DNA of 64,000 nucleotides, taken from positions 1-64,000 of the IMG/VR virus record IMGVR_UViG_3300037468_000262, one strand, 5' to 3'. The position numbers were made by a program, and so were the translations under genes. This DNA is from a virus. Positions 1,467 through 54,896 of the stretch are shown here, in pieces (the first letter of the stretch is position 1; each line of letters begins with the position of its first letter). The notes under the pieces are model-generated. The model worked only from the letters and a program-made list of their open reading frames with translations, was not told where the DNA came from and did not search any database.

Positions 1467-1584
1467 AGGGGAATGGTGCAGTGGTAGCACACGTAATTAA
1501 CGGTTACCTTGTACAAGGTACAGACAGCAATTACAAAAATCCCATCATACGGACGTGACGGAGGTTCGATTCCTTCTTCCCCAA
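1467..1584 (+). tRNA. tRNA-Met(CAT) with a 47-nt insert in the anticodon stem
   Basis: Acceptor strands are AGGGGAA (1467-1473) and TTCCCCA (1577-1583), six pairs plus an A1:A72 mismatch. The D arm is GTGC/GCAC and the T arm has loop TTCGATT. The anticodon stem forms only if 1495-1541 is removed: CGT (1492-1494) plus CC (1542-1543) then pairs with GGACG (1551-1555) around loop ATCATAC, with T33 and anticodon CAT at 1546-1548. No CCA is encoded. The 1:72 mismatch recalls initiator tRNA, but the GGG/CCC anticodon-stem signature of initiators is absent. Confidence 0.8.
1495..1541 (+). other. tRNA intervening sequence I1 (47 nt)
   Basis: The insert sits between tRNA positions 29 and 30. It holds hairpin TACCTT-GTAC-AAGGTA (1505-1520), then CAGA, then CAGCAAT (1525-1531), then an A-rich run to the 3' junction. 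From the end of CAGCAAT to the conserved GGA (1551) is 19 nt, exactly as in I3. It is far too short for a group I or II intron. Boundaries come from restoring the anticodon stem, not from known splice signals. Confidence 0.7.
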
Positions 1585-1610
1585 TTTGACAAACTGAAAC
1601 TTCCAAAGAC

Positions 1611-2429
1611 ATGACTAACTTTAGTGACAACTTAAATATTCTCCTAGACTTTTACTATGAGTTGAATGAAGTTAGGTTCAAGCTGGGCGACAATATTCGC
1701 ACACCTCACGCATGGGATAACGTAGCTGGCAATTTTGTACCCTTATTTGAAGAAACTCCCCAAATACCTTTGGAGTCCGAAATTGTAGAAATGCGAAATA
1801 AGGTACTTAATTTCTTTAGTTCTACAAAACGGTTTTTCTGGCGGGATGGTGATCGGGTTGTGCAAGATGGATTGAACCCAAATCTATCCTATGGCGGGGT
1901 AAGCCCTTTTCTTTTTGGGGATTGTTCCAACTTAATTGGTTACATCAATCATGAACTTACAGGAGATATAACTTACTTGTCGGGAGAGTTGAGTCAGGGC
2001 TTAAAAGGTAGAGTTTTGCCTTCGTTGAAAGGAGACATTTCTAATTTATATGGAAATTTGGGGCTGGGTATTGACCCACATGAGCGCCTATCTGGAATCC
2101 TTAACGAAAGTCTAACGGGCAATCTTAGCGGGTTGCGAGGAACAATTAACATCAAATTAAGGGGAGACTTGTCAGGTATCACAGGGACTATCAGCCCCAA
2201 CTTAACAGGTGACTGCTCCGGTTTAAGAGGCTTTATCTCAGGTCTCACAGGTGACTGCTCCGGTTTAAGCGGTAGATTGATCAACTTAGTTGGGGATTGC
2301 TCCGGTCTGTCAGGAGACTGTACAGGGGTGGAGGGAGATTGTACTAGCGTACCAGGTAATTTAGGTAATATTCCCTATGATCTAAGACCCACCAGACTTG
2401 AGTATGTTCTAAACAAACTTAACCCTTAA
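1611..2429 (+). CDS. Repeat protein with GDCSGL/LSG-type repeats
   Basis: A 272-residue protein. The first 100 residues are ordinary; from about residue 105 it is a string of degenerate repeats of the form (L)xGD(C/L/I)SGLxG. Such short-period Gly/Leu repeats suggest a beta-solenoid, as in phage fibres or surface proteins. No catalytic motif is seen. The ATG lies 27 nt after the first tRNA. Structural role is inferred from composition and from the collagen-like gene nearby. Confidence 0.6.
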   Translation: MTNFSDNLNILLDFYYELNEVRFKLGDNIRTPHAWDNVAGNFVPLFEETPQIPLESEIVEMRNKVLNFFSSTKRFFWRDGDRVVQDGLNPNLSYGGVSPFLFGDCSNLIGYINHELTGDITYLSGELSQGLKGRVLPSLKGDISNLYGNLGLGIDPHERLSGILNESLTGNLSGLRGTINIKLRGDLSGITGTISPNLTGDCSGLRGFISGLTGDCSGLSGRLINLVGDCSGLSGDCTGVEGDCTSVPGNLGNIPYDLRPTRLEYVLNKLNP

Positions 2430-2434
2430 AATCA

Positions 2435-2611
2435 ATGAAATCATCTCATCTTTACACTTTGATCGGTGTTGTAGCAGCGTGGTTTGTATTAACCTTGACA
2501 CTAATTCTCAAGGGGAACTATCAAGGTGCTATCGGAACTGGAATTGCTCTTTTCTTTTCCTCAGCCGGTACGATGAGTATTGTTGCCCATTTTGAAGGGA
2601 GCAGACGGTAA
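2435..2611 (+). CDS. Small membrane protein, 58 aa (paralogue of 5189-5374)
   Basis: Starts MKSSHLYTLIG and ends AHFEGSRR, matching MKSTHFNTLIG and CHFEGMGKDRR in the later gene. Two hydrophobic segments, about residues 6-26 and 32-50, make it a two-helix membrane protein. The paralogy supports both genes and fixes their starts. Function unknown. Confidence 0.7.
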   Translation: MKSSHLYTLIGVVAAWFVLTLTLILKGNYQGAIGTGIALFFSSAGTMSIVAHFEGSRR

Positions 2612-2700
2612 GCCCCCTTACCGTACCAACTGGAACTTTTTAAGTGCAAACTTAAGTAAAGAAAGGTTCGGGTTCGCCCTAGCCTTTTTCCACATTAGGG

Positions 2701-2711
2701 TATAATACTGA
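2701..2711 (+). promoter_or_regulatory. Promoter -10 with GTG at +1
   Basis: TATAAT at 2701-2706 is followed by 5 nt and then GTG (2712), so transcription should begin at about the start codon. No clear -35 hexamer is seen. The geometry matches the leaderless modules elsewhere in the window. Confidence 0.5.
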
Positions 2712-3749
2712 GTGACGTCGACAAAACGTCAACCAAGATGGAATCCTATAGAGCTGCATTGTCAGAGTTATAAAATTCCTTCTAACAACTCACCGCGCAC
2801 AATAGCGATGTTAGACCCTAGTCAAGCTAACTTGGGGCAAGGGCCACTCAATATGCCTCAACCTAAGGTTCAGGAAGCTAGTACAATACCTTCAAAACCT
2901 ATCGCAGAAGAGAGATTAGTTTCTACTGCAAAAAATTCGATTGCGCAAAAAACAGATACACCCAAACCAGTACTTAATTCCTTAATAGAAAATACCATGG
3001 AAATCGATTCAACAGACATTCTAAATCTGTATCGCGACCACTCCGACATTCGTCGTGATGTTGCTAAAGAATCCTCTGACATTCGTCATGAAGACGCCAA
3101 AGGTTTCGGAGACACCCGGTACGCCATTGCTACTGGCAATTGTGCTATCGGACGAGACGTTATGAGCACTGCTCATGACACTTCGGACAAAGTTGACGAA
3201 GCCGCTGACAAAATCCAGCAACGTGCGGCCGACTTTTACATCGCTGGACAAGCGAGAGATTTCGATAACGCCCGTGATCTCGCTACCCTTAGGGCAACTA
3301 CAGATCTTGCTGCTCAGAGACTCAGCCAGGAAATCCTTCTTGCTTCTGAGAAGAACGCTGCTGCTACTGCCCTTGAGTCTGCTAAGGTCGCTGCTGCCGT
3401 GGCACTTGGCCAGTCTGGTTTGAGCAAGGAAATTGCTGAAAGCAAATATGACCTCAGCAAGCAAGTTGCTTACGAAAATGAGAAGACCCGTGATCTCGTC
3501 AATTCTCTCAAGAATGATGAACTCAATCGTCTTCTTATTGAGCGTAACACAGACCTGACTCACTGCCGCCACGACTATTGGGGCGCCCGTGATGGCTTGT
3601 TCAATACCCAGTTCGCTGCGCTTACCTCGCAGGTTAATTCGCAATTTAACGCTCTGAATAGCCAAGTTGCCGAGACTCGTCAAGGCATGGTTAACTTCGG
3701 AACAATGGCCGGTGTGGGGCAATCCTCAACCAGCAACGCTGTGCGCTGA
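2712..3749 (+). CDS. Alanine-rich coiled-coil protein, possibly structural
   Basis: A 345-residue protein with a disordered, Pro/Ser-rich first 80 residues, then repeated helical units (DIRRDVAKES, DIRHEDAKGF, RDLATLRATTD) and a long heptad-like helix rich in Ala, Glu and Lys. The C-terminus repeats QVNSQFNAL. The GTG at 2712 sits at the predicted transcription start; ATG 2808 is an alternative. A strong terminator follows. No family recognised; a filament or fibre-associated role is a guess. Confidence 0.6.
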   Translation: MTSTKRQPRWNPIELHCQSYKIPSNNSPRTIAMLDPSQANLGQGPLNMPQPKVQEASTIPSKPIAEERLVSTAKNSIAQKTDTPKPVLNSLIENTMEIDSTDILNLYRDHSDIRRDVAKESSDIRHEDAKGFGDTRYAIATGNCAIGRDVMSTAHDTSDKVDEAADKIQQRAADFYIAGQARDFDNARDLATLRATTDLAAQRLSQEILLASEKNAAATALESAKVAAAVALGQSGLSKEIAESKYDLSKQVAYENEKTRDLVNSLKNDELNRLLIERNTDLTHCRHDYWGARDGLFNTQFAALTSQVNSQFNALNSQVAETRQGMVNFGTMAGVGQSSTSNAVR

Positions 3750-3771
3750 TCTAGTTCAGTAGTTAATAAAC

Positions 3772-3796
3772 GGGGGAGTTAACTCCCCCTTCTTTT
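3772..3796 (+). terminator. Intrinsic terminator
   Basis: GGGGGAGTTAACTCCCCC (3772-3789) is a perfect inverted repeat followed by TTCTTTT. It separates the coiled-coil gene from the collagen-like gene. Confidence 0.85.
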
Positions 3797-3809
3797 AAGG
3801 GGACTAACT

Positions 3810-4364
3810 ATGGACACAGCCGAAAGAAAACTCATTGACTTATATAATCTTCTTGCCATTCACCAAAGGGTGGAGGATCCCGATGTTCTTGAAAACATTC
3901 AAACAATTCGTACCGAAATCACCAAGCTACTAAACCATAGCGGCGGCGGAACTAACAATATCAACATTGTTATAGACGATGATGATTGCCCTGAGGAGTG
4001 CCCACCTGGCCTACCAGGGCCACCCGGAGAACCGGGGGAGCCAGGCCCACCAGGGCCACCAGGACCACCGGGTACCTGCTTACACCCTTGCATACTCGTC
4101 TCCGAGGACTATACAGCTACTGACTTCGATTATTACATCGGCGTGAACAGCGAAAAACCAGTGACCGTTACTCTTCTAAGCTACGTAGATAGCTGCACTG
4201 AGTACACAATCAAAGCTGAAATGGGTCCCCCGTTAGGGAACCGTAAAGTGACAATAAAACCCGAGGGGTCAGCTCTTATAGATGGGGATGAGGAATATAT
4301 ATTAACTTCCCCGTATGAAGCAGTCACAGTGCTGTTTCGGGGTGGAAACTGGCACATTGTATGA
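3810..4364 (+). CDS. Collagen-like repeat protein, 184 aa
   Basis: The N-terminal 65 residues are helical and acidic. A Gly-X-Y run of about eight triplets (GLPGPPGEPGEPGPPG and on) occupies residues 67-90, flanked by cysteines (ECPPG, GTCLHPC). A roughly 90-residue beta-rich domain with LLSYVDSCTEYTIK and ending FRGGNWHIV follows. The layout of trimerising helix, collagen stalk and beta head is typical of phage fibre or surface-decoration proteins. Confidence 0.7.
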   Translation: MDTAERKLIDLYNLLAIHQRVEDPDVLENIQTIRTEITKLLNHSGGGTNNINIVIDDDDCPEECPPGLPGPPGEPGEPGPPGPPGPPGTCLHPCILVSEDYTATDFDYYIGVNSEKPVTVTLLSYVDSCTEYTIKAEMGPPLGNRKVTIKPEGSALIDGDEEYILTSPYEAVTVLFRGGNWHIV

Positions 4365-4372
4365 AAGTTTAC

Positions 4373-4489
4373 GCGGCGTTTACACAGCGTTTACACAGCG
4401 AATGAGGTTCCTATTCCTCAATTACCACTTAAGGGGGAAAGTATAATTAGGGTGGTTCTTCGAAGGATCACCCATTAACACTATGTGTC
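4373..4489 (+). promoter_or_regulatory. Intergenic promoter region with leader hairpin
   Basis: A GCGTTTACACA direct repeat (4374-4398) is followed by TATAAT at 4442-4447 and a leader in which GGGTG and CACCC can pair around CTTCGAAG. The -35 is not clear. The leader is about 36 nt, unlike the leaderless modules. Confidence 0.4.
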
Positions 4490-4864
4490 ATGAAACCTTA
4501 CAATTATTACACTTCTTTTACAGTTGACTTTCCTGATAAATCTAACTACACCTTAAAATATTACTACAGAAAAGGTAAGCTCATGTGTATCAAGAAACCT
4601 TTTTGTGATCTCAAAGAAATCCCTATCAATGCTGTGGAAGAAACTGTTTTTGACGAGGACGGGTTCAAGTTGCACGAAAAGGCATGGCTCTCTGAGAAGA
4701 TAAAATTAGAGGAAGAATTCAAGGAAGACCTTATTAGAGAAGAGGGCCTCTCCCCTTCAGAAAAAGTTGATATATGCTTCTCCCTGGCGTGGGACTACGG
4801 TTGTTCCCAAGGTCTCAAAGAGGTACACGATTATTTTAGAGAACTTTCACAACTTGTAAAATAG
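4490..4864 (+). CDS. Hypothetical protein, 124 aa
   Basis: Tyr-rich beta-like N-terminus (residues 1-40) followed by a charged helical half rich in Glu and Lys. No motif recognised. It begins a short operon with the next two genes. Confidence 0.6.
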   Translation: MKPYNYYTSFTVDFPDKSNYTLKYYYRKGKLMCIKKPFCDLKEIPINAVEETVFDEDGFKLHEKAWLSEKIKLEEEFKEDLIREEGLSPSEKVDICFSLAWDYGCSQGLKEVHDYFRELSQLVK

Positions 4865-4880
4865 TTACAGTTAAACTACC

Positions 4881-5192
4881 ATGCTTACAACGCCAAACAC
4901 ACCGGTGCTTTCAGCTCACCAAGAAAAGAATACCGCTATAACAGGGTCGCCTTCAGAGACTGCGTCTAGTACACACTCGGGTGGTACACAAAAGGAATTT
5001 TCTGCAATTGCAATCGTAAAAATTCCCTTACAGTTCTCGGAAGAAAAGGTTAAAATCTTGATGGGAAGCATGGAAGCACAATTCGAAGGAACCGGGCACA
5101 AAGTAATATTCGTTCCTGAAGAAGTTGACATTAGCGTTGTGGGGTGTCCCCCTCTACCTGTAAACAACAAGAAGAGTCTACGGCAAAGATGA
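4881..5192 (+). CDS. Hypothetical protein, 103 aa
   Basis: The first 35 residues are Ser/Thr-rich and probably disordered; residues 40-90 look like a compact alpha/beta domain (IVKIPLQFSEEKVKIL, HKVIFVPEEVDISVV). Stop and next start overlap as ATGA. Confidence 0.5.
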   Translation: MLTTPNTPVLSAHQEKNTAITGSPSETASSTHSGGTQKEFSAIAIVKIPLQFSEEKVKILMGSMEAQFEGTGHKVIFVPEEVDISVVGCPPLPVNNKKSLRQR

Positions 5193-5374
5193 AATCAACT
5201 CACTTTAACACCTTAATTGGCATTTCAATAGCATGGTTTACCATAACGCTAACTGCCATTTTGAAGAGTAATCTACCAGTTGCCGCCTATGGTTTTTTGA
5301 TGAGTTCGTTGATGTCAGCGTTTATAATTGGAGCCGTTTGTCACTTTGAGGGCATGGGCAAGGATCGGAGGTGA
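5189..5374 (+). CDS. Small membrane protein, 61 aa (paralogue of 2435-2611)
   Basis: The start at 5189 is chosen because it overlaps the upstream stop and because MKSTHFNTLIG aligns with the start of the paralogue. Two hydrophobic helices, then CHFEGMGKDRR. Function unknown. Confidence 0.7.
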   Translation: MKSTHFNTLIGISIAWFTITLTAILKSNLPVAAYGFLMSSLMSAFIIGAVCHFEGMGKDRR

Positions 5375-5412
5375 ACCGCCCATATGGTTCGGTCTTTTTG
5401 CAGTAGCAAAAA

Positions 5413-5485
5413 GGTTCGGTAAACCGAACCGATCCGTTCGGTTCTCACCCTTGCTTCTGCAAGGCAGAAACGCTATGATTATAGC
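5413..5485 (+). promoter_or_regulatory. Stem-promoter module 1 (leaderless)
   Basis: GGTTCGGT/ACCGAACC (5413-5430) forms an 8-bp stem. It is followed by -35 TTGCTT (5451-5456), a 17-nt spacer containing CTGCAAGGCAG, and -10 TATGAT (5474-5479). Six nt separate the -10 from ATG 5486, placing +1 on the A of the start codon. This is the clearest template for the module repeated through the window. Confidence 0.8.
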
Positions 5486-5929
5486 ATGAACCGAGAGACC
5501 TTCTTCCCCTGCTCCCGCCAGATCGAGATCCTCGATCAGCACGACAACGCCAACGAGATTCCCCCGTACGTTGATTACCTGGTGCGGTTTGAGAATTCCT
5601 ACGGCGGAGAAAGCGTCGGAGTGGTAATTGAGCCCAACTCCAAAGGTGTCGAAGAAGTCTACACCAACCAGAAATTCCCGGTAGCTTCCATGCTTCCCGG
5701 TCAATCTGAAAATGACGAGCTTCTGCTGAACCTTTTCCGGACCTGGGTGTTGACTCCGCCAATGTTTACGCAAGTCACTGTTCGCCGACAGCCTGACAAG
5801 TTCTACACCTTGAGTTTCCACAATCAGCACTGGAATTTCCACTCTCGTTCCAAGAACCTTTCATACATCAAAGGAAAGATTCGGGACCTGGCGAAGTCCC
5901 GTGATGTGAAGGTCACCTGGGAGGTTTGA
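5486..5929 (+). CDS. Hypothetical protein, 147 aa
   Basis: Soluble, mixed alpha/beta composition with a basic C-terminus (HSRSKNLSYIKGKIRDLAKSR). No recognised domain. GC content and codon use are higher than in the small neighbouring genes, as for most genes directly behind a stem-promoter module, suggesting strong expression. Confidence 0.65.
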   Translation: MNRETFFPCSRQIEILDQHDNANEIPPYVDYLVRFENSYGGESVGVVIEPNSKGVEEVYTNQKFPVASMLPGQSENDELLLNLFRTWVLTPPMFTQVTVRRQPDKFYTLSFHNQHWNFHSRSKNLSYIKGKIRDLAKSRDVKVTWEV

Positions 5930-6006
5930 CTCCAAGTTTACCTCCCTCCCCGGGACCTATACTGTTTTTGAGGTGAGTCAGCGCTCACCTCGTTCACAAA
6001 CGAAAC

Positions 6007-6130
6007 CGAAGAGTAGCCAAGTGGATAGGCAGCGGTCATGCAAAAAAGATCACCTAGTTTAGGTGATTCAGCAATACCCCAATACGCTAAAGGAAACCGC
6101 CATACGCAAGTTCGAATCTTGCCTCTTCGA
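6007..6130 (+). tRNA. tRNA with about 52-nt insert; proline-like acceptor end, anticodon unresolved
   Basis: Acceptor CGAAGAG/CTCTTCG pairs fully, the D arm is GCC/GGC and the T arm is GCAAG TTCGAAT CTTGC. Anticodon stem GCGGT (6032-6036) pairs with ACCGC (6096-6100), but 59 nt lie between them instead of 7. C1-G72 with A73 is the bacterial tRNA-Pro pattern, and several cut choices give an AGG or TGG anticodon. Every simple excision leaves A rather than T at position 33, so the mature form is uncertain or the gene is defective. Confidence 0.65.
6037..6095 (+). other. tRNA intervening sequence I2 (about 52 of these 59 nt)
   Basis: AAAAAAG (6042-6048) leads into hairpin ATCACCTA-GTT-TAGGTGAT (6049-6067), then T, then CAGCAAT (6069-6075) and a tail with AAAGGAAAC. 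The order matches I1 and I3, and the tail resembles the orphan copy I4. Exact borders cannot be set from the sequence. Confidence 0.65.
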
Positions 6131-6133
6131 TTG

Positions 6134-6199
6134 TTTCTCTACGAGAAACGTAGATAGTTCAGCAATTTACCCTAACTCAACAAGGAAAACAACTATCTA
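6134..6199 (+). other. Orphan copy of the tRNA-insert element (I4)
   Basis: Just after the second tRNA, TCTACG-AGAAA-CGTAGA (6138-6154) or the alternative TTTCTC-TAC-GAGAAA forms a hairpin. It is followed by CAGCAAT (6160-6166) and a tail with ACCCTAA and AAGGAAA like I2. The core is enclosed by a perfect 9-bp stem, TAGATAGTT (6151-6159) with AACTATCTA (6191-6199). No D or T arm flanks it, so it is not inside a tRNA. It lies in the leader of the gene at 6225. Confidence 0.6.
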
Positions 6200-6224
6200 G
6201 TTTAACTCTGACTTTGTCAACAGA

Positions 6225-6548
6225 ATGAAAGTAAAAGACTTGAAAGAAAGACTGAACGACTTCCCGGATAATATGGAAGTTGTTGTTAGTGCGAATTACA
6301 CTCTGCCTCCTGAAAATGTGCCTCTAACTAAAGTAGAAGGAAAAATTAGCATTAAGGAGGACTTTGTAGCAGTTCTCGAGCCCGAAGACGAGCAGGATCT
6401 TCCGAGCTACTATTACGACAATTGTTTCTATGCGGACCCTAAAAATCAAACTGGTGCGAAACTCCATCCTTGCTATTTTCCCGGTGAGAATCTTCCAAAA
6501 AGAAAAGTGTTGATGTTAGATGTTTATTTAAGCGCAGGTGTGCTCTGA
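6225..6548 (+). CDS. Small phage protein with KxxDLxExLxxFPDxxEV motif, 107 aa
   Basis: The start KVKDLKERLNDFPDNMEVVV is a motif I know from many small phage proteins of unknown function, and recurs in the gene at 40042. The rest is acidic and Tyr-rich. It ends just before the third tRNA. Confidence 0.65.
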   Translation: MKVKDLKERLNDFPDNMEVVVSANYTLPPENVPLTKVEGKISIKEDFVAVLEPEDEQDLPSYYYDNCFYADPKNQTGAKLHPCYFPGENLPKRKVLMLDVYLSAGVL

Positions 6549-6611
6549 TAGCCAAGAGGGTTAAACCTAACCCTGTTTAATCTTGTTTCAAACTGTTTGC
6601 GAAGCAAACAA

Positions 6612-6726
6612 GGGACCGTAGCTCAACTGGTAGAGCGCTAAAAAAGTTATCTTGACAAAGATACATCAGCAATTAAAAATTCCTATTTTAAAGGAGAGGT
6701 TTCAGGTTCGAGTCCTGCCGGTCCCC
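6612..6726 (+). tRNA. tRNA-Lys(TTT) with a 42-nt insert in the anticodon stem
   Basis: Acceptor GGGACCG/CGGTCCC, D arm GCTC/GAGC and T loop TTCGAGT are clear. Removing 6640-6681 joins CT (6638-6639) to CCT (6682-6684), which pair with AGGAG (6692-6696) around loop ATTTTAA. This restores T33, anticodon TTT (6687-6689) and A37. No CCA is encoded and base 73 is C. Confidence 0.8.
6640..6681 (+). other. tRNA intervening sequence I3 (42 nt)
   Basis: The insert lies between tRNA positions 28 and 29, or one base earlier because a T is ambiguous. It contains AAAAAAG, hairpin TATCTT-GACA-AAGATA (6648-6663), then CAT and CAGCAAT (6667-6673), then an A/T run. The 19-nt spacing to GGA equals that in I1. 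Confidence 0.7.
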
Positions 6727-11926: not shown

Positions 11927-11928
11927 TT

Positions 11929-12018
11929 GGGCGTGTGGTGTAAGGTAGCACAGGGTCCCTTATACAGACCTCTCCGGCAGATTACCGGCTAGTTAGGGTT
12001 CGATTCCCTACGCGCCTA
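11929..12018 (+). tRNA. tRNA-like gene with enlarged anticodon-variable region; identity unresolved
   Basis: Acceptor GGGCGTG/CGCGCCT, D arm GTGT/GCAC and T arm TAGGG TTCGATT CCCTA are clear. Between D and T arms lie 41 nt plus base 26, instead of about 22. GGGTC can pair with GACCT around a 9-nt loop, or GGTCC with AGACC around CTTATAC (anticodon TAT). An extra hairpin CCGG-CAGATTA-CCGG precedes the T arm. It may be an unusual long-variable-arm tRNA or another insert type; CAGCAAT is absent. Confidence 0.6.
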
Positions 12019-12109
12019 TTTTATATTGGGTAATAATGACCAGGGTTTAGGCCCTTCTCACTAACACCCTATTACCACTCTAAAAATAACAACAATTAAA
12101 ACATAAAAA

Positions 12110-21878: not shown

Positions 21879-22000
21879 GTCAAACGTTCAGGCTGCTTCG
21901 GCAGCCCGGAAGTAGGTGACAAAGGAACGCATTCGTTCAGTCTTTTTACAGACCGGGATTGTCTCCAAAGGAACGCGCAAAGCAACCCTAGGAGAACACA

Positions 22001-26679: not shown

Positions 26680-28161
26680 ATGGTAATAGAAAATGCAAGG
26701 CAGACCGCTGCGGCAGTCTGTGATAAAAATATCGAATGCGACAATAGCTGCTCGGTTAGTGAAACCGTTCTCTGTGACTTGCGTTCTCGCCCCGCCCCAC
26801 GCAGGATCAACCTCGACGCACTTTACAAATGCGACCCGAAAGATTACATCGGCTATTTTGCTGACGAAACTTCATACGACAATCTCATTCAAGAAGACTG
26901 CGACGTTTACGTTGCCGGAGTCAAAGTTGTCGCCTTCCGTAAGTCCCTGTTCCCGAAGCTGAAGGAAGGTTCCAAGGGCGATCCGAAGACTTGGGAATAC
27001 TTTCGCTGGGCAGCTCGCGATCTTTACTCGGACCAGCGCGGTCTTGTTGCCGGTCGAGAACTTACCACGGATCTTGAAATCAGGGTCACGAACGGAATCG
27101 TGAACTTTCTTAAGAAGGCCATGGCTGGTCAAGTTACCGAAGTTGAAGAGGCTCTGAAAATTGTTAGCCTCTCCCCAGACCATGGTAAGCTCACGGTTAG
27201 AATCACAGAAGTCAAGAAAGACTACCCGGAAATTGCCAAAGCTCTTGAACCTATCGAGGCAGAACTTCGCAAGAAAGCAACAACCGAAGAAAGAAAAGTA
27301 GAGCTGAAGAAGGCGAAGGGAGAAGAACTTGCAAAGTGGTTCCCAACCTGGCTGTCGCAAACCTGGGCTGGTGCGAAGGATAAAGAGGCTGAAGCCAAGA
27401 GAGCTGATGACAGGTACATTAGCAAGCAGCTACGCTCAAACAAATGCTATTCTAACGTTCTTGGGGCTTTCGATAGAGGGGCAAGAAACCCTTACGGTCG
27501 CTTGACCGCTACCACCCTTAAAAACTACGATGGTTTCGTGGGCCATACAGACATTTATCAGACTGCGTGTGCAGCACTGAAGGAAACCCTGAACACCGAG
27601 GAAAACCCTCGCTGGGATCGCCTTCACAACCGATTCGGCAACGTGAAAGACCCGCACTACAACCTTTTCGGTACGGTGTTTACCGCCCTGACACTAAACT
27701 GGAACTTCCGCTGTGCAATGCACTATGACGGGAACAATTGCGAAGGGGGTATTGCCGTTCTTACTGCAATGACTCAGGGCGAATACGACGGTCATTACCT
27801 GGTGTTCCCAGAAATCCGCTGCGCCTTTGACCTTCGTGACGGGGACTTCATTGCCGGTGACAACCAAGGTTTGATCCATGGTAACACAGCGATGATTCCG
27901 AAAACCTCTGACGCTGAACGGGTCTCTTTCGTTTTCTATTCTCGTGAGCGTATGACCCTGCTTGATGATATGAAGTGCGAAGATTGCCGCCGCGATTTCA
28001 TGAAGTACGCCGCTGAAAACTATACTCAGTACGGCAAGGGACACAAAACCTGGAACGGCGTGTGGCAAGGAATGTGGAAGTCTTCAGAATGGATGAAATT
28101 CAAAGTATTTAATGGAGCGGAGCGTTGCTCAAACACCAACTACTGGGGAACTGAAAATTAA
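26680..28161 (+). CDS. TET/JBP-family dioxygenase, copy 1 (493 aa)
   Basis: MHYDGNN near residue 347 gives the HxD pair, EYDGHYLVFPEIRCAFDLR follows, then RDGDFIAGDNQGLIHGN with the distal His near 400 and AERVSFVFYSR with the 2-oxoglutarate-binding Arg. This is the JBP/TET signature of Fe(II)/2OG enzymes that hydroxylate the methyl of thymine or 5-methylcytosine in DNA. The N-terminal 140 residues are extra to the core, and CEDCRRDF may bind metal. A second, shorter copy follows at 29164. Confidence 0.8.
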   Translation: MVIENARQTAAAVCDKNIECDNSCSVSETVLCDLRSRPAPRRINLDALYKCDPKDYIGYFADETSYDNLIQEDCDVYVAGVKVVAFRKSLFPKLKEGSKGDPKTWEYFRWAARDLYSDQRGLVAGRELTTDLEIRVTNGIVNFLKKAMAGQVTEVEEALKIVSLSPDHGKLTVRITEVKKDYPEIAKALEPIEAELRKKATTEERKVELKKAKGEELAKWFPTWLSQTWAGAKDKEAEAKRADDRYISKQLRSNKCYSNVLGAFDRGARNPYGRLTATTLKNYDGFVGHTDIYQTACAALKETLNTEENPRWDRLHNRFGNVKDPHYNLFGTVFTALTLNWNFRCAMHYDGNNCEGGIAVLTAMTQGEYDGHYLVFPEIRCAFDLRDGDFIAGDNQGLIHGNTAMIPKTSDAERVSFVFYSRERMTLLDDMKCEDCRRDFMKYAAENYTQYGKGHKTWNGVWQGMWKSSEWMKFKVFNGAERCSNTNYWGTEN

Positions 28162-29163: not shown

Positions 29164-30342
29164 GTGGAATTTCGGCTAGGATCTCGTTTAACTAAGGGGC
29201 AAGTTGCCTTCTTCGCCGGTGCTTCTGTGGGTTTGATTACCACGCTTGCCCAAGCGCGAGAGGCCCTAGAAAGCTCGGATGAACTTACTAGCAAGACGCT
29301 CAAGATCAAGTACATAAAGAAAGACTATCCAGAACTCGCGGAAAGAATGAAACCCTTGGAGGCAGAAATTCGAACCCTAGGCGCTGACGACCCCAGACTA
29401 GAAAGTCTGAGAAACCAGAGAAGAGATCAACTTTGGAGCTGGTTTGAGCCTTGGTTGTTGGAAACCTGGTTGCCCTCAGAAAACAAAGTAGAAGAAGTTA
29501 AAAAGGTTCTAAGCACGTACATAAGTTCCCAGTTGAACTTTAACCACTGCTACAGTAACGTCCTTGGGGCGATTGACCGTGGGGCGAGATTTCCCTACGG
29601 TCGTTTGAGCGGAACCACTCAAAGGTACTACGAACAGTTCTCAAAGTACAGGGACATTTATTACGAAGCTTGCGAAGGTTTCCGGCATACTTTCCCGGAA
29701 ACATGGAGCAAAGTTAAGGAAGTAATTTCGAGGGTTAAAGATCCCAACTACAACTTGTTCGGCACTGCCTTTACGAGTGTGACTCTAAACTTCAATTTCA
29801 AGACTGCCTACCACGTTGACAAGAACAATTTGAAAGGAGGTCTGGCCGTCTTAACTGCTTTCACAAAGGGTGTTTATGAAGGCCACTACTTGGTGTTTCC
29901 CGAAGTGAGATTGGCCTTCAACTTAAGAGATGGGGACTTTATCGTAGGGGACACTCAAACCTTGCTTCATGGTAACAGCCCCATGACAAAACTTACTGAA
30001 GATGCTGAGCGGGTTTCTCTGGTTTTCTACTCACGAGAGAACATGACCCGATTGGACGATCTTGAGTGCGAAGAATGCCGAAAACAGTTCATGAAGTTTT
30101 CACTTCAGACTCTGAAAGAACGAGGCAAAGATCACAAAGATTGGAGGGGCGTGTGGCAAGGAATGTGGACTTCTCAAGAATGGCTAGACTTTCGAAAAGA
30201 AAGAAACTTGGAATACTGTTCAAACTCCAATTGGCAGCTTTCCTCGCCGTACGAGAACGAAGTTACGAAAGAGGTGAAGCTGTTCAAGGATGATCCCGGC
30301 GAAGGATGGAAACTCGTACAAGTGTTTACACAAGGTCGGTGA
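29164..30342 (+). CDS. TET/JBP-family dioxygenase, copy 2, N-terminally shortened (392 aa)
   Basis: Every core element of copy 1 is present: YHVDKNN (HxD), VYEGHYLVFPEVRLAFNLR, RDGDFIVGDTQTLLHGN and AERVSLVFYSR. The first recognisable match begins at about residue 115 of copy 1, because a TAG (29110-29112) closes the frame upstream and GTG 29164 is the likely start. The catalytic core looks intact, so it may be active with a different target. It ends inside module 8. Confidence 0.75.
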   Translation: MEFRLGSRLTKGQVAFFAGASVGLITTLAQAREALESSDELTSKTLKIKYIKKDYPELAERMKPLEAEIRTLGADDPRLESLRNQRRDQLWSWFEPWLLETWLPSENKVEEVKKVLSTYISSQLNFNHCYSNVLGAIDRGARFPYGRLSGTTQRYYEQFSKYRDIYYEACEGFRHTFPETWSKVKEVISRVKDPNYNLFGTAFTSVTLNFNFKTAYHVDKNNLKGGLAVLTAFTKGVYEGHYLVFPEVRLAFNLRDGDFIVGDTQTLLHGNSPMTKLTEDAERVSLVFYSRENMTRLDDLECEECRKQFMKFSLQTLKERGKDHKDWRGVWQGMWTSQEWLDFRKERNLEYCSNSNWQLSSPYENEVTKEVKLFKDDPGEGWKLVQVFTQGR

Positions 30343-54051: not shown

Positions 54052-54114
54052 ATGAGTGAGGGTGAAATCATACTTTCAAACAACGGAAGATGGTTTGTTA
54101 CACCTACGTTATAG
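54052..54114 (+). CDS. 20-codon frame at module 13, possible interrupted gene
   Basis: MSEGEIILSNNGRWFVTPTL starts at the predicted +1. The endonuclease ATG begins 13 codons in, so this looks like the stub of a gene cut by insertion of the mobile endonuclease. Confidence 0.35.
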   Translation: MSEGEIILSNNGRWFVTPTL

Positions 54115-54896
54115 TGTTCGAAGACAGTTTCTTTTACATAGGGGTTAGAAAGTGTCCCAAAAACCTCACCCCCTTTACTGACCTGTACTCAGGCTCCCCT
54201 GTGACACACAAGGAAAAGTGGGTGAACACAACTTTCAAAAAGAAAGTTATCAGTATACACGGCACATGGAAAGAAGCCTCTTTCAAGGAAATAGAACTAT
54301 TGAACCACGTTAAATGGAACTCGAACCCTAGATGCCTAAATGAGAATAACGGGGGATGCTTCTCAGAAGAAACATGCTCCAAGGCAGGGAAAATAGGAGG
54401 AAAAACTACTATTGACAAAATGAGAAATGACCCCGATTTCGCTAAGGCTCGTAACAAGAAATTGTCGGAAAGTTTAAAAAGAAGATACAGAGAAAACCCT
54501 GAAGTTTTAGAAAAACAAAGAGTATTGGTTTTGGAAGCTTCAATGAAGTCACTGAAGTCAAGAGAAAGTTTATTAAGAAACAATCCAGATTATTATAAGA
54601 ATAACGGTCTTAAAATTTCTGAGGCTCTGAAGCTGAAAGCATCTGAAGACCCTTCTTTCAGGGAACAGCTGGCTATTAAAGCCAATAAAGCAAGTGAGAC
54701 TTACCGTAAAATGCTTAAAGAGGACCCCGAGTTTAGAGAAAAAGTTAAAGCAGGTAGGGAAAGAGCTGCCCTAAAGATTAAAAATAGTGTTTGGATAACA
54801 AACGGGCAGAAAGACAGAAGAGTAAGTGCAGATCTTCCAATTCCCGACGGATTTAGGAGGGGCAGGTCCAACAACAAGAGAAGGAGTGAACAATGA
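54090..54896 (+). CDS. GIY-YIG-type homing endonuclease, 268 aa
   Basis: CYTYVIVFEDSFFYIGVRKC at residues 3-22 gives a YxY/YIG-like pair and LYSGSP follows; KKKVISIHGTWKEASFKEIE supplies the basic and Glu region. Residues 100-250 are repeated basic helices (RNDPDFAKARNKKLSESLKR, ENPEVLEKQR, EDPEFREKV) that probably wrap DNA. A-rich composition marks it as a mobile gene. Confidence 0.75.
   Translation: MVCYTYVIVFEDSFFYIGVRKCPKNLTPFTDLYSGSPVTHKEKWVNTTFKKKVISIHGTWKEASFKEIELLNHVKWNSNPRCLNENNGGCFSEETCSKAGKIGGKTTIDKMRNDPDFAKARNKKLSESLKRRYRENPEVLEKQRVLVLEASMKSLKSRESLLRNNPDYYKNNGLKISEALKLKASEDPSFREQLAIKANKASETYRKMLKEDPEFREKVKAGRERAALKIKNSVWITNGQKDRRVSADLPIPDGFRRGRSNNKRRSEQ

Follow-up and report, generated by a model that had tools for sequence, protein, structure and literature searches.

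Ro60 and the Y RNAs have been retained in organisms as different as bacteria and humans, and the role of the Y RNAs is still debated. The bacterial YrlA RNA (RF02553), a ligand of Rsr/Ro60, has a basal stem formed from its two ends which holds Rsr, together with a tRNA-like domain (PMC8394870). In phages, Y RNAs were reported from mycobacteriophages (Chen et al. 2014, as cited in PMC12282133), and for Listeria phage CKA15 the abundant non-coding RNAs around its Rsr-like gene were proposed as Y RNAs (PMC12282133). Conserved inserts are also found in the tRNAs of Lak megaphages, where they were called enigmatic introns; one was described as containing a candidate tRNA gene of its own (Devoto et al. 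2019, PMC6784885). In our study, a stretch of 64,000 nt (the window; bases 1-64000 of the 70,656-base IMG/VR virus record IMGVR_UViG_3300037468_000262) was analysed, in which three tRNA-like genes are interrupted in the anticodon arm by a hairpin and the motif CAGCAAT. These inserts are probably, at roughly three chances in four, modules by which phage Y RNAs bind the Ro protein, rather than self-splicing introns of a new class.

The element occurs in two forms, namely inside tRNA genes (H-type) and outside tRNAs (P-type). In phages MsGreen (Mycobacterium), vB_BcoS-136 (Bacillus) and phiWec174 (Escherichia), the P-type helix and its CAGCAAY strand enclose a complete permuted tRNA, consisting of the T arm, a loop-closed acceptor stem and the D arm, followed by an A-rich strand. 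These copies share the layout of YrlA, in which permuted T, acceptor and D arms also stand above a basal stem and whose gene likewise adjoins a Ro-type gene. In the internal loop of YrlA the 5' strand contributes GC and the 3' strand AAAAC; the Rfam consensus reads ..AUGC.. opposite ..AaAcUuG.., and at the matching place the phage element has CAGCAAY opposite AAAAAC. Unlike YrlA, the phage element is without an Rfam match, bears the CAGCAAY signature, is reduced in many copies to a look-alike of an anticodon arm, and occurs in tandem arrays, in mRNA leaders and, as the H-type, inside tRNA genes which are not permuted.

The putative phage Y RNAs resemble the element in being small RNAs near a Ro-like gene, and Listeria phage LP-125 has motif copies just upstream of Ro; however, the available text of the publications describes no shared motif, leader copies or tRNA-embedded form. 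For the Lak introns the available text describes neither hairpin plus CAGCAAY nor a link to Ro. Archaeal and eukaryotic tRNA introns and permuted tRNA genes are similar in their small anticodon-arm inserts and flanking pairing strands, whereas the splicing endonuclease family of the bulge-helix-bulge system (tRNA_int_endo, PF01974) was found in 0/12 element-bearing genomes and the conserved strands are different. Group I tRNA introns share the location in the anticodon arm, but they measure 200 nt or more against 38-47 nt for the present inserts, and the element was unmatched up to E 10 in Rfam 15, including YrlA, Y_RNA, group I with its catalytic core and all ribozymes. A preliminary description of this locus had held that neither a group I intron nor archaeal-type machinery was to be expected, and in both respects it was correct.

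A conserved RNA module in two permuted forms

Twenty-one related loci were fetched by means of the Ro60-like gene of the window, and further pattern scans were run over IMG/VR. Nearly all of these loci contain tRNAs with the hairpin plus CAGCAAT insert, and altogether ~65 distinct H-type tRNA genes (virus contigs and isolates) and ~120 distinct P-type copies (virus contigs, Synechococcus phage B23 and Aeromonas phages) were recognised. The preliminary description had regarded a lack of related copies or an origin in assembly errors as fatal; the copies proved to be numerous and the inserts recur in isolates and independent contigs. The module is built from a helix of ~6-10 bp, most often ending CTWG/WAG, flanked by CAGCAAY on the 3' side and by an A-rich strand (AAAAAC) on the 5' side. 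P-type copies run from WAG.... (strand S2) through CAGCAAY, a small hairpin and the A-rich strand to ....CTWG (strand S1), whereas the H-type order is A-rich strand, S1, small loop, S2 and CAGCAAY. Since the same strands are present in permuted order, the two forms are circular permutations of each other. In the helix 96% of the cells are paired, with 61 double-change cells against 16.6 in shuffled alignments, and the pairing collapses once the partners are slid. A conserved RNA structure and a real family, as first suggested from the window, are hence confirmed.

In the window the Ro60-like gene, the tRNA-like genes with their inserts, the P-type elements and the RNA ligase gene all lie on the plus strand. 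A Met-type tRNA gene (1467-1584; anticodon CAT after excision) contains an insert of 47 nt at 1495-1541 (A-rich strand, hairpin 1505-1520, CAGCAAT 1525-1531), and a gene with a Lys body (6612-6726; anticodon TTT after excision) contains one of 42 nt at 6640-6681 (A-rich strand, hairpin 6648-6663, CAGCAAT 6667-6673). The Rfam tRNA model covers each of them as one tRNA with a long insertion (40.2 and 42.4 bits). The middle tRNA-like gene, termed class C (6007-6130), has a complete anticodon stem GCGGT/ACCGC, and the H-type element sits in its loop (6042-6094; A-rich strand, hairpin 6049-6067, CAGCAAT 6069-6075, AAGGA). ARAGORN without the intron option misses all three genes. The arrangement of hairpin, 1-4 nt and CAGCAAT (at 1525, 6069 and 6667) agrees with the preliminary description, and so does the distance of 19 nt from CAGCAAT to GGA in the Met- and Lys-type genes; it is 16 nt in the middle gene and 17 nt in a further copy at 6160. 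The four copies counted earlier do represent a real motif, but the one at 6160 lies outside any tRNA and is opened at a different loop. It forms a P-type element, TAGATAGTT-CAGCAAT-...-AACTATCTAG (6151-6200), between the class C gene and the next open reading frame (ORF). A fifth copy, also P-type and with the variant CAGCGAT (1370-1423), encloses the anticodon-arm look-alike TTTCT TTGCAAC AGAAA, as read directly from the sequence. Covariance model R1, of the kind that had been proposed for searching, scores these two permuted copies at 50.0 bits (E 5.6e-9) and 39.5 bits (E 1.3e-6) respectively; it was trained on cyanophage copies and is too narrow for other phages, and in an alignment of cyanophage and other-phage copies the helix falls into two registers. 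Taken alone, CAGCAAT shows no enrichment in the window, with 13 occurrences against an expectation of 8.1, whereas the full motif is enriched, as strict scans of whole genomes show (see below).

Cultured isolates carry the H-type as well. It is present in a gene of Synechococcus phage B23 annotated tRNA-Undet, and in Aeromonas phage Ahp1 (gene annotated tRNA-Pseudo) the B23 insert occupies the same site and its excision gives a perfect tRNA-Asn(GTT) arm; another H-type insert is found in Aeromonas phages 4_4572, LAh_6, LAh_8 and LAh_9. No bacterial or archaeal genome among 84,980 contained the strict H-type pattern, single elements resembled the DNA of named phages at chance level only, and blastn of the whole window region gave only a low-level match to an unrelated gene.

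Most P-type copies enclose only a look-alike of an anticodon arm. A loop of exactly 7 nt is enclosed by 50 of the 122 P elements against ~10% in shuffles, and here the stem is usually of 5 bp with U at position 2 of the loop in 32 cases, which is an anticodon arm; the element of Aeromonas phage 4_4572, for example, encloses TTTGA CTTTTAA TCAAA. Six P-type copies (L182:2125-, L174:1129+, L138:2718-, L160:5415-, L044:12116+ and L186:310-) have a T arm, in some cases with an acceptor-like stem, and no D arm, and look like intermediates between a permuted tRNA and a bare anticodon arm. In related jumbo phages (L015-L017, L019, L022), permuted-class tmRNA genes called by ARAGORN overlap tRNA gene ends.

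Linkage to a Ro60-like gene

The window opens with the 3' part of a gene for a Ro60-like RNA-binding protein (1-1183; phrog_850, E 2.6e-113; Pfam DUF2828 and the vWA-type DUF7788), the 5' end of which falls beyond the contig start. The protein is Ro60-like in its predicted fold. The AlphaFold2 model of its relative from locus L018 (mean predicted local distance difference test score (pLDDT) 72.8, predicted template modelling score (pTM) 0.66) gave eight matches in the PDB at E<0.01, all of them Ro60 (including 1YVR, 1YVP and 9NF8), and nothing else below 0.04; the best match was 1YVR (E 1.9e-4, probability 1.00). The relation is visible by fold comparison only, as phmmer of the Ro60-like protein against the PDB found no match.

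Wherever the 5' end of Ro is intact in a cyanophage-type locus, a P-type copy stands 3-17 nt before the Ro start codon. B23 and the genome G005 have two-copy leaders, tandem pairs being frequent, and a recognisable P-type form also precedes Ro genes of 41% identity (L021, L022). Ro (phrog_850) is encoded in 25/28 virus records, most of which were fetched by the RNA motif without using Ro, and in 0/4 control phages (T4, P-SSM2, phiKZ and SPO1). The Ro-less exceptions are two ~10-kb fragments and one record of 182 kb (L054); TROVE and DUF2828 models found no match in them, and the same models also miss a divergent Leptolyngbya protein of 25% identity. The H-type tRNAs of L054 show perfect excision (CGT^GC, Arg TCT).

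Around the Ro genes of 18 named phages 23 strict matches were found, every one in the orientation of Ro, where shuffles gave 0.6, and the motif lies beside Ro in phages of Bacillus, Listeria, Mycobacterium, Campylobacter, Klebsiella, Enterococcus, Vibrio, Aeromonas, Leptolyngbya and Escherichia. In five whole phage genomes, 17/20 matches fall at <=5 kb from Ro (binomial p 3e-13), and scans of the T4, P-SSM2 and SPO1 genomes returned scattered background matches only. Strict scans of whole element-bearing genomes gave 5 copies in B23 (244 kb), 8 in G005 (258 kb) and 5 in G002 (279 kb), every one of which lies in a tRNA/Ro region and has the orientation of the tRNA cluster. Two further loci are worth recording. 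In Vibrio phage KVP40 (L243, 3500-3617) a T-arm-like hairpin and TACAGCAATTT stand right before the Ro start codon and may be a divergent element. In LP-125 (L245), where P-type copies lie upstream of Ro, an RtcB-type RNA ligase gene follows the Ro-like gene at a distance of ~1.3 kb, an arrangement which resembles bacterial RNA repair operons.

Y-RNA modules, introns and other explanations

The motif is about twice as common outside tRNAs as within them, stands between tRNAs and in the leader of the Ro mRNA, and follows the Ro60-like gene across unrelated phages. For these reasons a Ro-binding (Y RNA) element is the preferred explanation, and the undescribed class of intron or cleavable insert put forward in the preliminary description is not retained as its primary identity. 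The H-type 'introns' are most likely the same module as the P-type, placed in the anticodon arm of tRNA genes. The ring of the phage Ro protein may bind the helix together with the CAGCAAY/A-rich junction. In P-type RNAs the helix ends would be open, as in Y RNAs whose helix is made from the two RNA ends, and the module would enclose an anticodon-arm look-alike (the only tRNA-like part in most copies) or a permuted tRNA whose acceptor end is closed. In the H-type the helix is loop-closed and the molecule would be open at its acceptor end, with the module as an extra arm of an otherwise ordinary tRNA. Its product could thereby combine tRNA and Y RNA in a single molecule, the Y RNA being opened at the acceptor end and not at the Ro stem.

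Binding of Ro to its own mRNA leader would limit Ro synthesis by autoregulation. The remaining RNAs may present their tRNA-like or anticodon-arm-like parts on Ro, acting as decoys or docking sites against anticodon nucleases, and may also give a platform for RNA repair by phage RNA ligases. The idea of YrlA as an anticodon-nuclease decoy has already been raised (PMC7790460), and jumbo phages are known to combine RNA ligases with TROVE proteins (PMC7824862).

Several observations weigh against the Y-RNA explanation. Neither YrlA nor Y_RNA of Rfam matches the element, and the one weak YrlA match sits on ordinary tRNAs. The 182-kb record with L054 has the element and Ro was not detected in it. 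The strict scan gave no match in the Ro neighbourhoods of KVP40, Sf14, phiAS5, S-CoN_Ph10, LPCS28, 7t3 and PMS3, so not every phage Ro uses the motif. The P-type elements were selected partly on pairing, and both sets include orthologues, so that the P and H counts are not independent. Moreover, no described Y RNA known to us has its acceptor ends free and its Ro stem closed, as the H-type would.

The strongest rival takes the H-type inserts as true introns, cut by a phage or host endonuclease, perhaps guided by Ro, with the halves joined by ATP-dependent phage RNA ligases; it is regarded as unlikely. Automatic excision gives a perfect 5-bp anticodon stem with a 7-nt loop in 46/66 H-type tRNAs, against 13.5 +- 3.1 (maximum 21 in 200 trials) when the 5' halves are exchanged between genes, so the separated strands of the anticodon stem have been kept complementary. 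U33 is present in 35 and a purine at position 37 in 38 of these 46 arms. ARAGORN accepts 19/19 hand-spliced forms as canonical tRNAs; of the unexcised H-type tRNAs it accepts 0/69 without the intron option and 65/69 with it. However, the split stem can also pair with the insert retained, and its restoration is therefore not a proof of excision. Judged from the sequences, the kept complementarity fits excision and fits equally an insert which forms an extra arm of the anticodon stem. The preliminary description had stated for the Met- and Lys-type genes that excision restores the stem, T33 and a sensible anticodon; this holds, as removal of 1495-1541 and 6640-6681 by hand yields canonical tRNA-Met(CAT) and tRNA-Lys(TTT), each read as such by ARAGORN. 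Class C does not regain U33 under any excision and fails to be restored as a canonical tRNA. No uninterrupted copies of the same tRNAs, sought to fix the splice sites, were found among the fetched loci.

The enzymes and the anticodons also point in both directions. An RNA ligase (PF09414) is encoded in 12/12 element-bearing genomes and Rnl1 (PF09511) in 8/12, and the window has an Rnl2-like ligase (RNA_ligase PF09414, 37402-38034, E 3.3e-30), which could possibly act as the sealer should excision of inserts or repair of tRNA halves take place. In contrast, RtcB was found in 0/12 of these genomes and is absent together with the splicing endonuclease. The insert-bearing tRNA-Arg(TCG) of B23 is not duplicated by another tRNA gene, as would suit an intron, whereas both insert-bearing tRNAs of G005 duplicate the anticodons of intact tRNAs. 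Orthologous H-type bodies (L002-L020, L058, L127, L165, L168, L186 and window 1467-1584) differ in anticodon between phages, for example with CAT, CAG, TAC and TCC on one body, and some H-type loops have 6, 8 or 9 nt or lack U33, as if the anticodon escapes normal constraint. These varied anticodons and odd loops, with class C lacking U33, make the H-type unlike ordinary decoding tRNAs and tell against the intron explanation, as does the greater frequency of the same motif where there is nothing to splice.

Splicing is compatible with Ro binding. A combined route, in which H-type pre-tRNAs would be loaded on the phage Ro through the insert, spliced by protein enzymes and sealed by phage RNA ligase, is a shade less probable than introns in general. 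If true, it would be a Ro/Y-RNA-guided, protein-catalysed tRNA splicing of phages, unrelated to the group I and archaeal systems, and the more remarkable outcome.

An RNase processing signal which separates tRNAs in polycistronic transcripts is quite improbable. In B23 and its relatives several P-type copies do immediately follow sigma-70-like promoters or stand within a few bases of a tRNA end, 5' or 3', as such a signal might; but most intact tRNAs in the same clusters have no copy between them, and the Ro-leader copies and the tandem arrays without tRNAs (Aeromonas phage 4_4572, a Leptolyngbya phage and a Listeria phage) do not fit.

Known small ribozymes combine a short conserved strand with permuted topologies, and ~40-50 nt would be large enough for one. 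A self-cleaving or self-splicing ribozyme in circular permutations is nevertheless very improbable, as no ribozyme family of Rfam matches, the helix is partly conserved in sequence, and the motif tracks the gene of a specific RNA-binding protein, which a ribozyme would not need. Degenerate pseudo-tRNAs or assembly artefacts without function, as the public labels tRNA-Undet and tRNA-Pseudo might suggest, can practically be dismissed in view of the covarying helix, the selected pairing of the separated anticodon-stem strands, the retention in isolates and independent contigs and the insertion site shared by one Synechococcus and one Aeromonas phage. Neither a transposon end nor a hairpin site in the DNA was retained as an explanation, since the copies are always on the same strand, just after promoters and in mRNA leaders; CRISPR-like repeats and a homing element were also considered and dropped.

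Other features of the window and biological meaning

Some other features of the window may be mentioned. A tRNA-Ile(TAT) at 11928-12019 has the unusual length of 92 nt, with 90-92 nt in relatives, for which a long variable arm may account, and an ORF at 3810-4364 inside the tRNA region contains a collagen-like Gly-X-Y stretch. A glutamine riboswitch aptamer of cyanobacterial type (RF01739) at 21883-21933 fits a cyanophage. Two paralogous phrog_24024 proteins are encoded at 26680-28161 and 29164-30342. The first contains a match to the Tet_JBP oxygenase domain, which is associated with DNA base oxidation; that of the second, to a queuine tRNA-ribosyltransferase family, is weak. An ORF at 54090-54896 resembles a homing endonuclease (phrog_314).

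In a search of the available literature no description was found of this motif or its spread over phages of many hosts, nor of copies in the Ro leader or inside tRNA genes. Phage Ro genes and hundreds of RNAs are connected by a single sequence signature, and the Y-RNA explanation would also account for some phage genes annotated as undetermined or pseudo tRNA. The forms may represent stages between tRNA and Y RNA, in which the Ro module appears either as an arm of a tRNA or as the stem below a permuted tRNA or below nothing more than an anticodon arm. Testable partners are available in culturable phages (B23, Ahp1, the LAh phages, MsGreen and felixounaviruses). Our study points to tRNA protection or repair as a possible function of these phage RNAs.

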